In this document: positions 30,502 to 34,122 of the stretch, piece by piece
How the letters are laid out: each line of letters begins with the position of its first letter
Numbering within the stretch: position 1 is the first letter of the stretch
NCBI RefSeq assembly: GCF_014696135.1
Contig: NZ_JACJPP010000007.1
Span: 248,001-312,000 of the forward strand
Length of the DNA stretch: 64,000 nt
Direction of reading: 5' to 3'
DNA from: Nodosilinea sp. FACHB-141
GTDB lineage: Bacteria > Cyanobacteriota > Cyanobacteriia > Phormidesmidales > Phormidesmidaceae
The notes under the pieces: model-generated
Database searches by the model: none
Seen by the model: the letters and a program-made list of their open reading frames with translations, nothing else
What the model was told of the DNA's origin: nothing
Program-made: the position numbers and the translations under genes

Positions 30502-31140
30502 TTAGAGCGCAGCTGCCCCGCTAGTGCAAAACACGCTGTCGGGTGAATCGGCCTGACTTGCCACTGTGCTAACGGCGGTGAACTCTGCCGTTGTTAGCAG
30601 GGCTTCGACCTGGGCGACCTCATAGGCGGTAAATCCGTGCTGGGTTAGCCCCTGGTCTTCTAAGTAGGCCTTTGACGCATAGCCAATCACCAAGCGACCG
30701 CCGGGCTTGAGCACGCGCCGACACTCGGCCAGTACCTGGGGCGCGTTGGCCCAAAAATATAGGGTGTTGACAGTGCAAACCTGGCTGAACTGCTGATCGG
30801 CAAAGGGTAATGCCTCGGCACTGGCCTGGTGAAGTTCGACTAGATCTTGGTTAATTGGACCTTGAAAGCGCCGCTCACAGAGCCGCATAGCGTCGGGCGA
30901 TCGCTCCACCCCCACCACCTGAGATGGTTTGCCTGTCGCTACCAGTTTGTGGACGAGGTCACCACCGCCAAACCCGATTTCGAGAATGCGATCGCCTCGC
31001 TGAAGCTGTAAAGCCTCTAGAACTAAGTCGTTGAGAGCAGCATTGCGGCGATTGAGAAACTTCAGCAAGAGCCGCCCAAACCACCCTGAGGGATCGCCCA
31101 ACTGCTGGGCCAAAAATGACTTGAAGGAATTAATCCCCAT
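30502..31140 (-). CDS. Class I SAM-dependent methyltransferase
   Basis: A 212-residue methyltransferase of the UbiE/Coq5-like class. SAM motif I is ILEIGFGGGDLVHKL near residues 52-66; VVGVERSPDAMRLCERRF supplies the acidic end of strand 2, and CTVNTLYFWANAPQVLAECRRVLKPGGRLVIG is the usual post-motif region. The N-terminal 40 residues (WFGRLLLKFLNRRNAALND) suggest lipid- or small-molecule-type substrates. It is 57 bases downstream of the cytochrome P450 gene on the same strand and is probably the last gene of the TetR-linked cluster. Substrate unknown; modification of a P450-hydroxylated product is a reasonable inference. Confidence 0.85.
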   Translation of the reverse strand: MGINSFKSFLAQQLGDPSGWFGRLLLKFLNRRNAALNDLVLEALQLQRGDRILEIGFGGGDLVHKLVATGKPSQVVGVERSPDAMRLCERRFQGPINQDLVELHQASAEALPFADQQFSQVCTVNTLYFWANAPQVLAECRRVLKPGGRLVIGYASKAYLEDQGLTQHGFTAYEVAQVEALLTTAEFTAVSTVASQADSPDSVFCTSGAAAL

Positions 31141-31197: not shown

Positions 31198-32310
31198 TTA
31201 GAACAACACCGGCAAAGATTTAACCCCATGGACTTCGACAGAGGGAATAAACTCCAGTTCTCTGTTAGGCACAATGCGAAGATTGGGCAGCCGTTCTAGC
31301 ACAGCGCTTAAAACAATTTTGGCCTCTAATCTAGCCAGCGGCGCACCCAAACAAAAATGAATGCCATTGCCAAAGGCCAAGTGAGGATTGGGATCGCGAT
31401 CGACTACAAACGCGTCGGCGTGCTCAAACCGAGCCTCGTCGCGATTGGCCGCACCCATCCAAACGGTGACCATTTCCCCGGCTGGAATAGTCTGCCCTTG
31501 GAGCTGAGTTTCGACCTGAGTGAACCGTGCCATAGCCTGTACTGGCGATCGATAGCGCAAGACCTCTTCGATTGCCAGCGGCAGCAGTTGAGGATCTTGT
31601 TTGAGCTGTGTGAAAGCCTCTGGATAATCGTTAAAGCAGAGCATGGCGTTTCCCAAGAGATTGGTGGTGGTCTCGTTGCCGCCCACAAGCAGCACGATGC
31701 AAAAATCCACGAGTTCTTGGGCTGAGAGGGTCTCGCCTGCTTCGTGGGCCGCAATTAAATCGCTAATCAGGTCTTGACTGGGATTCTTGCGGCGCTCGGC
31801 TAGCAGGTGCCGAAAGTAGTCAGCCATGGCGGTTAATGCGGCCTTGTCGTAGACCACAATGCCGTCTGACCAGCGTTTGAAATCGCCGCGATCGCTTACC
31901 GGTACGCCCAAAATTTCAGCAATCACAATCACCGGCAGTGGAATCGCTAAATCGTGCATAAAATCCATCTCACCTTGATGCTGAACCCCGTCAAGCAACT
32001 CATGAGTAATTTGCTTGATCCGGGGAGCTAGGGACTCTACTCGTCGGGCGGTGAAAACTTGGGCTACGAGCGATCGCAGCGCTCTATGCTTCGGTGGGTC
32101 GGTGAAATTTAGGCTTTCAGTCAAATCGGTTTGCTCGGGCGGCTGCGGGATTTTAGATGAAAACGTTTTCCAGTCAGAAAAGACTTGCTTAACATCGGCG
32201 TAGCGAAACACCATCCAGCTTTGGTGCGCTGGGTCGTAAAAGACCGGCCTGTCGCGGCGCATCTCGGCATACCACGCAAACGGATTGCGAAAAAGTTCAG
32301 AATTTTGCAC
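31198..32310 (-). CDS. Cytochrome P450
   Basis: A 370-residue soluble bacterial P450. The helix-I oxygen-activation motif is VGGNETTTN, the helix-K ExxR is EEVLRYRS, and the heme-thiolate loop is FGNGIHFCLGAPLARLE, with cysteine as iron ligand. WMVFRYADVKQVFSDWKTF and DPPKHRALRSLVAQVF are standard N-terminal elements. It lacks a membrane anchor, so it needs a soluble ferredoxin partner, not encoded here. GTG at 32310 is chosen because AGGAGA lies six bases before it; the ATG at 32346 would add 12 unconserved residues. It probably oxidises a small lipophilic compound, and is likely co-regulated with the exporter-like gene upstream and the methyltransferase downstream. Confidence 0.93.
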   Translation of the reverse strand: MQNSELFRNPFAWYAEMRRDRPVFYDPAHQSWMVFRYADVKQVFSDWKTFSSKIPQPPEQTDLTESLNFTDPPKHRALRSLVAQVFTARRVESLAPRIKQITHELLDGVQHQGEMDFMHDLAIPLPVIVIAEILGVPVSDRGDFKRWSDGIVVYDKAALTAMADYFRHLLAERRKNPSQDLISDLIAAHEAGETLSAQELVDFCIVLLVGGNETTTNLLGNAMLCFNDYPEAFTQLKQDPQLLPLAIEEVLRYRSPVQAMARFTQVETQLQGQTIPAGEMVTVWMGAANRDEARFEHADAFVVDRDPNPHLAFGNGIHFCLGAPLARLEAKIVLSAVLERLPNLRIVPNRELEFIPSVEVHGVKSLPVLF

Positions 32311-32316
32311 GATACA

Positions 32317-32322
32317 TCTCCT
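32317..32322 (-). promoter_or_regulatory. Ribosome-binding site setting the P450 GTG start
   Basis: AGGAGA on the minus strand, six bases before GTG at 32310. The alternative ATG at 32346 has no such element at a fitting distance. Confidence 0.65.
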
Positions 32323-32416
32323 AATATCTAAAAATTTGCAAGGCAAAGCGGGCCAGCTAGAGGTGGCTAAAGCGCTCAGCGCTTTTGAGGCAACTTGTCG
32401 GGTTGATACTTAAAAA

Positions 32417-32872
32417 CTAAGAGGCAGAAAACCAGCTGATGCCGGTAGTTATGGCAACGGCTGTTGCAGCGCCATACAGCGTGATGCCAATGAGTGAAAA
32501 GACTAAAAGTTGCCGGGGTGAAATGCCCGTAAGCGGACCAACAATAGCAACTGTCCAACTTCCTAAAAGCGGAGTCATGGGGATGAGAAACCAGACACCG
32601 TAGCGCTTAAAAGCTTGTCTAACGCGCTGCCCACCGCGTTTCTCAAGGTGCAGTAGCCAAGCGCGCGGTTGAGGAATCTGCATGAGGCGATCGTAGCCCC
32701 ACAGCATCAGTGGAATAGGCAAAAAATTGCCCAGCACTCCCCAAAATACTGCTGAAACTGTGTCTAACCCCAGAGCCATGCCTGCCGCGACGGCCGCATA
32801 AACCTCAGCGTAGGGAAAGAACCCCACTGACCAGGTCGTCAGCGCTTTAGTGATGTACTCTGCTATTGACAT
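32417..32872 (-). CDS. Small multi-drug export family membrane protein (COG2426-like)
   Basis: A 151-residue integral membrane protein with about four helices. The opening FFPYAEVYAAVAAGMALGL, followed by AVFWGVLGNFLPIPLML, and the later FLIPMTPLLGSWTVAIVG match the family annotated as putative small multi-drug export. Experimental evidence for transport in this family is thin, so the transport role is tentative. It lies between the P450 gene (106 bases downstream) and a second small membrane protein gene (155 bases upstream), all on the minus strand facing the TetR regulator. A role in exporting the P450 substrate or product is an inference from context. Confidence 0.78.
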   Translation of the reverse strand: MSIAEYITKALTTWSVGFFPYAEVYAAVAAGMALGLDTVSAVFWGVLGNFLPIPLMLWGYDRLMQIPQPRAWLLHLEKRGGQRVRQAFKRYGVWFLIPMTPLLGSWTVAIVGPLTGISPRQLLVFSLIGITLYGAATAVAITTGISWFSAS

Positions 32873-33027: not shown

Positions 33028-33441
33028 TTAGTGCAGCCGTTCAGAGGTAAGCAATCGTACCTCTCTAACTGCCTTGAACCAGGCAAAGCCCAGCAAGATC
33101 GAGTACCCAGAAAATAGGAATGCCGCGTAGCGTCCAGCAGTTTTGGGCTGCATGTTGCTCATCAGTTCGGCAAAGCCAGCCAAAATGGGAATTTCCCCTA
33201 GCATGCCAGGCAGCGCGAGGCAGATTGCGCCCTGTAACCAGTCTTTGGTTTCAATGCGCCGCCATCGCATCAGCCCGACAAAGACCAGCGTATACAGTGC
33301 GCCAGTGCTAGCAACGTTAAGCCAATATTCCATCACCGATCGCTCAAAGAAAATCGAGCCCACCTGCCGGTAGGCCATGGTGGCCGCTGCCCAAATGCTA
33401 AATCCAACCAACACGAGGCTCAAACGATCTCTTGTGTTCAT
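33028..33441 (-). CDS. Small four-helix membrane protein (possibly DUF5367-like)
   Basis: A 137-residue membrane protein with about four hydrophobic helices: residues 8-25, 40-60 (SVMEYWLNVASTGALYTLVF), 70-90 and 105-122. It resembles DUF5367-type proteins often found beside TetR regulators, but I am not certain of the family. It is the first gene reading away from TetR; its ATG is 22 bases from the nearer palindromic operator, so it is the most direct candidate target of repression. The function is unknown. Confidence 0.7.
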   Translation of the reverse strand: MNTRDRLSLVLVGFSIWAAATMAYRQVGSIFFERSVMEYWLNVASTGALYTLVFVGLMRWRRIETKDWLQGAICLALPGMLGEIPILAGFAELMSNMQPKTAGRYAAFLFSGYSILLGFAWFKAVREVRLLTSERLH

Positions 33442-33462: not shown

Positions 33463-33488
33463 GTTAACGTAATAGCAGTTACGTTAAT
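33463..33488. promoter_or_regulatory. Operator site 1 in the TetR divergent promoter
   Basis: Perfect inverted half-sites TTAACGTAA (33464-33472) and TTACGTTAA (33479-33487) around a six-base centre. This symmetry is typical for a TetR-family dimer. The core also fits GTA-N8-TAC (33469-33482), the NtcA consensus, so a nitrogen-control role cannot be excluded from sequence alone. Confidence 0.75.
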
Positions 33489-33489
33489 G

Positions 33490-33515
33490 ATAAATGTAAT
33501 AACTATTACGCTAAC
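33490..33515. promoter_or_regulatory. Operator site 2 in the TetR divergent promoter
   Basis: Read on the minus strand this site matches site 1 at 20 of 26 positions, starting GTTAGCGTAATAG, with inner arms GTAATA and TATTAC (33496-33509). It starts one base after site 1 and ends seven bases before the TetR ATG at 33523. It also fits GTA-N8-TAC. Confidence 0.7.
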
Positions 33516-33522
33516 TGTCAAC

Positions 33523-34122
33523 ATGAGTCGACCGACTGAACCTCAAAAGAAAGCTGAGTTGCTCGAAAAATGCCTGGAGGTAGCCATTGAGACGGGTGCG
33601 CTAGACGCTAGCATTAACGCGATCGCCAAACGCATCGGCACCAGCGGGCGCATGCTGGTCTACCACTTTGGCTCGAAGCAAGAGCTAGAGCGCCAGGTAA
33701 TCGCCCGGCTGGAGGTGCGTCTGCGCGCACAGCTACAGTCGCTGCAAAGCACAGCTGTCGCCGATGCCGATACCGTTGCCGAGTCTCTGCTGGCGATGTG
33801 GCAGCAATTTACCACCCCAGCGATGCAGGGCTGGCTGAAGCTGACGATGGATCTCAACCTGCGGGCCATGCAGGGAGATGCCGAAACTCAGCAGTTTTTG
33901 GAGCGTGAAACCCAGCAGTGGATTGAATCACTGACGGTGCTGATAGGCGATGAAGCGGTGGCGCGATCGCTGTTTCACCTATTTCAGGGGGCCACCCTCG
34001 ACTTTTTGACTACCGGCAACGCCCAGCGCGGCGAGCAGAGCATAAAGGCATTTTTGGATGGCATGCGATTCTCCTTTGGAGAGGCTGCGCCAACACCCTC
34101 CAGAGCCCCAAACAACGCCTAA
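33523..34122 (+). CDS. TetR/AcrR-family transcriptional regulator
   Basis: A 199-residue repressor-type regulator. The N-terminal helix-turn-helix (about 8-55) includes ASINAIAKRIGTSGRMLVYHFGSKQEL, the classic TetR pattern ending in a YHFGSK recognition-helix junction. The C-terminal helical ligand domain is divergent, as usual. The ATG at 33523 (MSRPTEPQKK) is chosen; the in-frame ATG at 33487 lies inside the operator palindromes and would add 12 unconserved residues. Two palindromes abut the start, implying tight autoregulation and control of the divergent membrane-protein/exporter/P450/methyltransferase genes. The effector is unknown. Its stop overlaps the convergent TRIC-type gene by four bases. 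Confidence 0.92.
   Translation: MSRPTEPQKKAELLEKCLEVAIETGALDASINAIAKRIGTSGRMLVYHFGSKQELERQVIARLEVRLRAQLQSLQSTAVADADTVAESLLAMWQQFTTPAMQGWLKLTMDLNLRAMQGDAETQQFLERETQQWIESLTVLIGDEAVARSLFHLFQGATLDFLTTGNAQRGEQSIKAFLDGMRFSFGEAAPTPSRAPNNA

Follow-up and report, generated by a model that had tools for sequence, protein, structure and literature searches.

The window analysed here is a 64,000-nucleotide stretch of the genome of Nodosilinea sp. FACHB-141. On its forward strand, positions 33523..34122 encode a TetR-family regulator of 199 aa (MSRPTEPQKK...), whose helix-turn-helix domain matches TetR_N (PF00440, E=1.1e-7; 31.9 bits against a curated cut-off of 24). The AlphaFold model is all-helical, with nine helices and a mean pLDDT of 84, and its top PDB matches in Foldseek are TetR-family proteins (TM about 0.6-0.7). 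The helix-turn-helix region, with its DNA-reading helix, is almost unchanged across the aligned relatives. We set the start of the gene at the ATG at 33523, since this is where the alignment of all relatives begins, with MSRPTEPQ or something close to it; an alternative, longer frame begins at 33487 and would cross the second of the two palindromes described below.

Divergent from tetR, on the reverse strand, lies a cluster of genes that begins with a DUF5367 small membrane protein of 137 aa (33028..33441; PF17329, E=1.9e-23). Its model consists chiefly of four long helices (pLDDT 86.7). A PDB search with this model for clues to function gave no significant match, a sequence search gave no relative with a solved structure, and no naming of the protein was found in the literature searched. 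The second divergent gene (32417..32872) encodes a putative small multidrug export protein, SmMDR (PF06695), and the third (31198..32346) a cytochrome P450 with 5l90 and 4rm4 as the closest solved structures. A SAM-dependent methyltransferase gene (30502..31140) is probably the final member of the cluster.

The ATG codons of tetR (33523, forward) and DUF5367 (33441, reverse) are separated by 81 bp, and this gap holds two palindromes. Predicted operator site 1 (TTAACGTAA-TAGCAG-TTACGTTAA, 33464..33487) is 24 bp long and has perfect 9-bp arms around a 6-bp spacer, as the earlier note had read it. Predicted operator site 2 (TAAATGTAA-TAACTA-TTACGCTAA, 33491..33514), also of 24 bp, is an imperfect copy. 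Framed as 26-bp stretches (33463-33488 and 33490-33515), the two are separated by a single base, and site 1 agrees with the reverse-complemented site 2 at 20 of 26 positions, both as the earlier note had claimed. Of the start-codon distances given earlier, the 7 bases to the TetR ATG holds; that to the DUF5367 ATG is 21 bases, not 22. The centres of the two sites lie 27 bp apart. The whole element can alternatively be read as a 51-bp quasi-palindrome of four alternating half-sites (19/25 symmetric pairs), and the half-site register used by each dimer is ambiguous.

No match to the palindrome at ≤3 mismatches arose in 100 shuffles of the window. The genome-wide search for the same motif that had been proposed as a check returned, from 5.9 Mb and beyond the paired sites, only three isolated matches at ≤3 mismatches, each with three mismatches; with these as the next-best matches, a wider regulon was not found in the organism's own genome. 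A literature search for TTAACGTAA gave nothing relevant among the matches listed.

To place these sites in a comparative context, we gathered relatives of the TetR (59-97% identity), drawing on named genomes as well as on genome sets covering the same order and the same class. Both palindromes lie upstream of every full-length relative, that is, in 36/36 distinct cyanobacterial sequences, many of which are related (clustering the TetR at 80% identity leaves about ten groups), so that these and the following counts are not independent. The set spans Nodosilinea, Nostoc, Calothrix, Crocosphaera, Xenococcaceae, Richelia and Synechocystis-like genomes. Absence of the palindromes from relatives that keep the gene pair, named beforehand as grounds for abandoning the operator reading, was seen in none of the 36. 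The spacing between centres is 27 bp in all of them, site 2 lies 6-11 bases from the TetR ATG, and site 1 mostly 17-24 bases from the DUF5367 ATG. The half-site consensus is TTAAYGTAAT, in which the outer TTAA is conserved equally with the GTA core; beyond the paired element conservation declines, except in the adjoining TGTCAA. DUF5367 is the divergent neighbour of TetR in nearly all relatives, and what stays constant in Nostoc, Calothrix and others is just the TetR with DUF5367. Within the genus Nodosilinea, the P450 is present in 8/28 genomes, all eight with the TetR. Its adjacency was directly observed in L022-L025 and L027, and the methyltransferase gene is retained beside it in L022, L025 and L027.

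The palindromes overlap a predicted promoter that faces DUF5367. On the minus strand, a consensus promoter reading gives a -35 hexamer TTGACA (33516..33521) and, after a 17-bp spacer, a -10 hexamer TACATT (33493..33498) within site 2, together matching 10/12 consensus positions. The TTGACA is at the same place in 34/36 relatives and shifted by one base in one more. Site 2 spans the spacer and the -10, and the predicted transcription start, at about 33486, would fall inside site 1; therefore, a repressor bound at either site would be expected to block the DUF5367 promoter. The left half of site 2, which coincides with the -10, reads TACA in 35/36 relatives. The remaining three half-sites have TACA in 11/36, 2/36 and 5/36 and otherwise mostly TACG. 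The imperfection of site 2 is thus itself conserved, and is best explained as a trade-off between operator and -10 hexamer.

Looking across 390 cyanobacterial genomes, which are related and do not give independent counts, we found the full-length TetR in 17 and the palindromes in 17/17, a pattern without exception. Among the other 373 genomes there were no orphan operators at ≤1 mismatch, only isolated single matches with two mismatches. DUF5367 occurs in 29 of the searched genomes, and the palindrome is absent from all 13 of these that are without this TetR. N-terminally truncated or partial TetR copies (L017, L021, L030/L140) have no operator. What the analysis shows directly is the sequence, its conservation, the fixed 27-bp spacing, the way the element overlaps a consensus promoter, and its one-to-one association with the TetR.

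Some copies of the locus depart from the intact form. At L017/L053 and L021/L049 (Tildeniella, LEGE 07298), C-terminal TetR remnants lie, without operator, about 3.5 kb from a glycine-transporter-like gene. In the window such a gene is a neighbour of the intact TetR, which suggests that the TetR was lost from an ancestral location. The TetR of Synechocystis salina (L030; L140, G295) is missing the 32 N-terminal residues, and with them part of the DNA-binding domain; it has no operators and adjoins an old-yellow-enzyme-like gene. In a Synechocystis-like genome (L139, G259:C2:29000-39000), the TetR, SmMDR and P450 are 88%, 85% and 86% identical to those of the window and the paired sites are present, the second with three mismatches, but only about 42 residues of DUF5367 are left. 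This copy suggests horizontal transfer of a TetR/operator/SmMDR/P450 unit, with decay, and further suggests that the operators may be able to serve SmMDR-P450 directly. Finally, L141 (G008) carries, at about 3-1289, a second TetR copy with both operators and a transposase-like gene in place of DUF5367.

We consider it very probable that the palindromes are paired operators of the adjacent TetR, which would repress the DUF5367 operon and probably also itself. That such operators would control the divergent genes is strongly supported by comparative genomics, and repression of these genes, as the earlier note had proposed, gains support from the conservation in 36/36 relatives, the perfect co-occurrence with TetR and the overlap with TTGACA-17-TACATT. 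By a published rule, TetR-family regulators that lie less than 200 bp from a divergent gene repress that gene (PMC3511530). The 81-bp gap fits this local-repressor rule because the divergent neighbour is well inside that distance.

Regarding mechanism, we infer binding, repression, autoregulation, cooperativity and a ligand. A TetR dimer, or a pair of dimers, would sit on each palindrome. Occupation of site 2 would block the -35/-10 region, and occupation of site 1 would block the predicted start of the DUF5367 operon, which here would extend into SmMDR, P450 and the methyltransferase. A small hydrophobic ligand, perhaps a P450 or export substrate, would release TetR and induce the operon. For Nodosilinea and the one transferred copy, it is plausible that the P450 is under this control. 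With the sites directly upstream of its start codon, tetR would probably be repressed too. Autoregulation, also claimed earlier, is likely from the operator position, 6-11 bases before the tetR ATG; a consensus search of the plus strand found no tetR promoter.

An additional role for NtcA had been raised, since both sites also read GTA-N8-TAC and dual control by nitrogen status seemed possible. We confirm the core at both sites, and it is retained at site 1 in 33/36 relatives and at site 2 in 35/36. In NtcA-repressed genes the box is reported to lie downstream of the -35 (PMC3898017), a placement that site 2 fits, and a TAN3T hexamer (33507-33512) stands 24 bases beyond site 1, which approximates activator geometry for tetR. 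This geometry would formally allow NtcA action on tetR, a role that none of our findings favours. For DUF5367, the canonical activator position, with a centre near -41.5 and a TAN3T -10, is not found, as both sites are downstream of the -35. Arguing against dual control, GTA-N8-TAC is contained in the GTAA-N6-TTAC of the palindrome and is not independent evidence. Moreover, the outer TTAA is conserved as well as GTA/TAC, and where this TetR is missing so are the sites, although all cyanobacteria have NtcA (PMC3898017). The core is also frequent by chance: base composition predicts about 11 occurrences in the window, which has 7. It was not found in the stretches read of related P450-DUF5367 operons (L111, L117, L134), whose P450 is 74% identical to that of the window. 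The likeness to NtcA boxes is thus confined to a core whose conservation is not independent of the longer, TetR-linked palindrome around it. Based on core frequency, conservation profile, co-occurrence and the related operons, we rejected NtcA control as very unlikely.

Even less probable is a purely autoregulatory role of the sites at tetR, with the divergent genes left out as targets. Consistent with this idea, every relative has site 2 close to the tetR start, at 6-11 bases, and at L141 the operators remain although a transposase-like gene replaces the divergent gene. Counter to it, TTGACA-17-TACATT faces DUF5367 and is conserved together with the operators, one half-site is bent toward the DUF5367 -10, and DUF5367 is the divergent neighbour in nearly all relatives. 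Least probable of all is that TetR is an activator, as some members of the family are (for example AtrA; PMC3511530), or that the palindromes belong to another, unlinked regulator, given that sites over the -35/-10 and predicted start are in a repressor position and are missing from every searched genome without this TetR.

As paired operators of a local repressor, the palindromes would make up an arrangement that works like TetR/tetA, with longer and closer operators. Shared with that system are two palindromic operators in the divergent gap, a TetR-fold repressor and a membrane-protein target (PMC3511530); as there, the divergent neighbour is close, at 81 bp, and the palindromes overlap the predicted target promoter and are conserved with the regulator. 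The TetR/tetA palindromes are 15 bp long, whereas those in the window are 24 bp, nearly abutting at 27 bp and of unrelated sequence, and the target operon, unlike that of TetR/tetA, has DUF5367, SmMDR and P450. We would describe the locus as a classic TetR arrangement in which the spacing appears unusually rigid. TetR-family regulators of the QacR/CprB type bind as a dimer of dimers on 22-32 bp (PMC4150764). The long palindrome at each site resembles their targets, and a run of four half-sites could accommodate more than one dimer (PMC4150764), but the window differs in having two complete palindromes at fixed spacing.

The same layout recurs with a second TetR subfamily (L111, L114, L117, L118, L121, L134, L135, L136, L148, L151), which in other cyanobacteria goes with DUF5367 genes or P450-DUF5367 operons. 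Its promoters carry AAACGCGAG-N6-CTCGCGTTT twice, each 24 bp long with 9-bp arms and a 6-bp spacer. The two copies lie exactly 27 bp apart in 10/10 distinct sequences, over TTGACA, and the best pair scores 27-33 of 36, where shuffled sequences reach at most 23. Here the half-site is AAACGCGAG instead of TTAACGTAA, and the regulator is only about 28% identical to the TetR of the window over 95 residues, in the best full-domain match. The DUF5367 proteins of these loci are about 23-31% identical to that of the window, compared with 74% for the P450. One genome, G008, carries both operator types. Another DUF5367 lineage (L112, L126, L129, L130, L132) is found beside DevBC-like export genes, with neighbours assigned by eye from sequence.

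The shared 27-bp layout may reflect ancestry, convergence or regulator replacement. We tentatively raise the possibility, which we think somewhat doubtful, that the 27-bp double operator over TTGACA is a conserved socket. In this case, two TetR subfamilies with different half-sites would share one geometry on related P450/DUF5367 genes. One regulator would have replaced another with the number of operators, their arm length, spacer and phasing left unchanged, presumably because two dimers need to bind cooperatively.

The finding that an NtcA-like core can arise within the palindrome of another factor calls for caution in motif-based predictions of nitrogen regulons. The two predicted repressors of G008, which differ in half-site but share a promoter layout, could serve as a naturally occurring orthogonal pair for controlling cyanobacterial genes. 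For the regulator itself, an uncharacterised cyanobacterial TetR, the operator, target promoter and target operon can now be predicted with confidence, and the DUF5367 membrane family is placed in a predicted TetR-controlled, P450-linked context.
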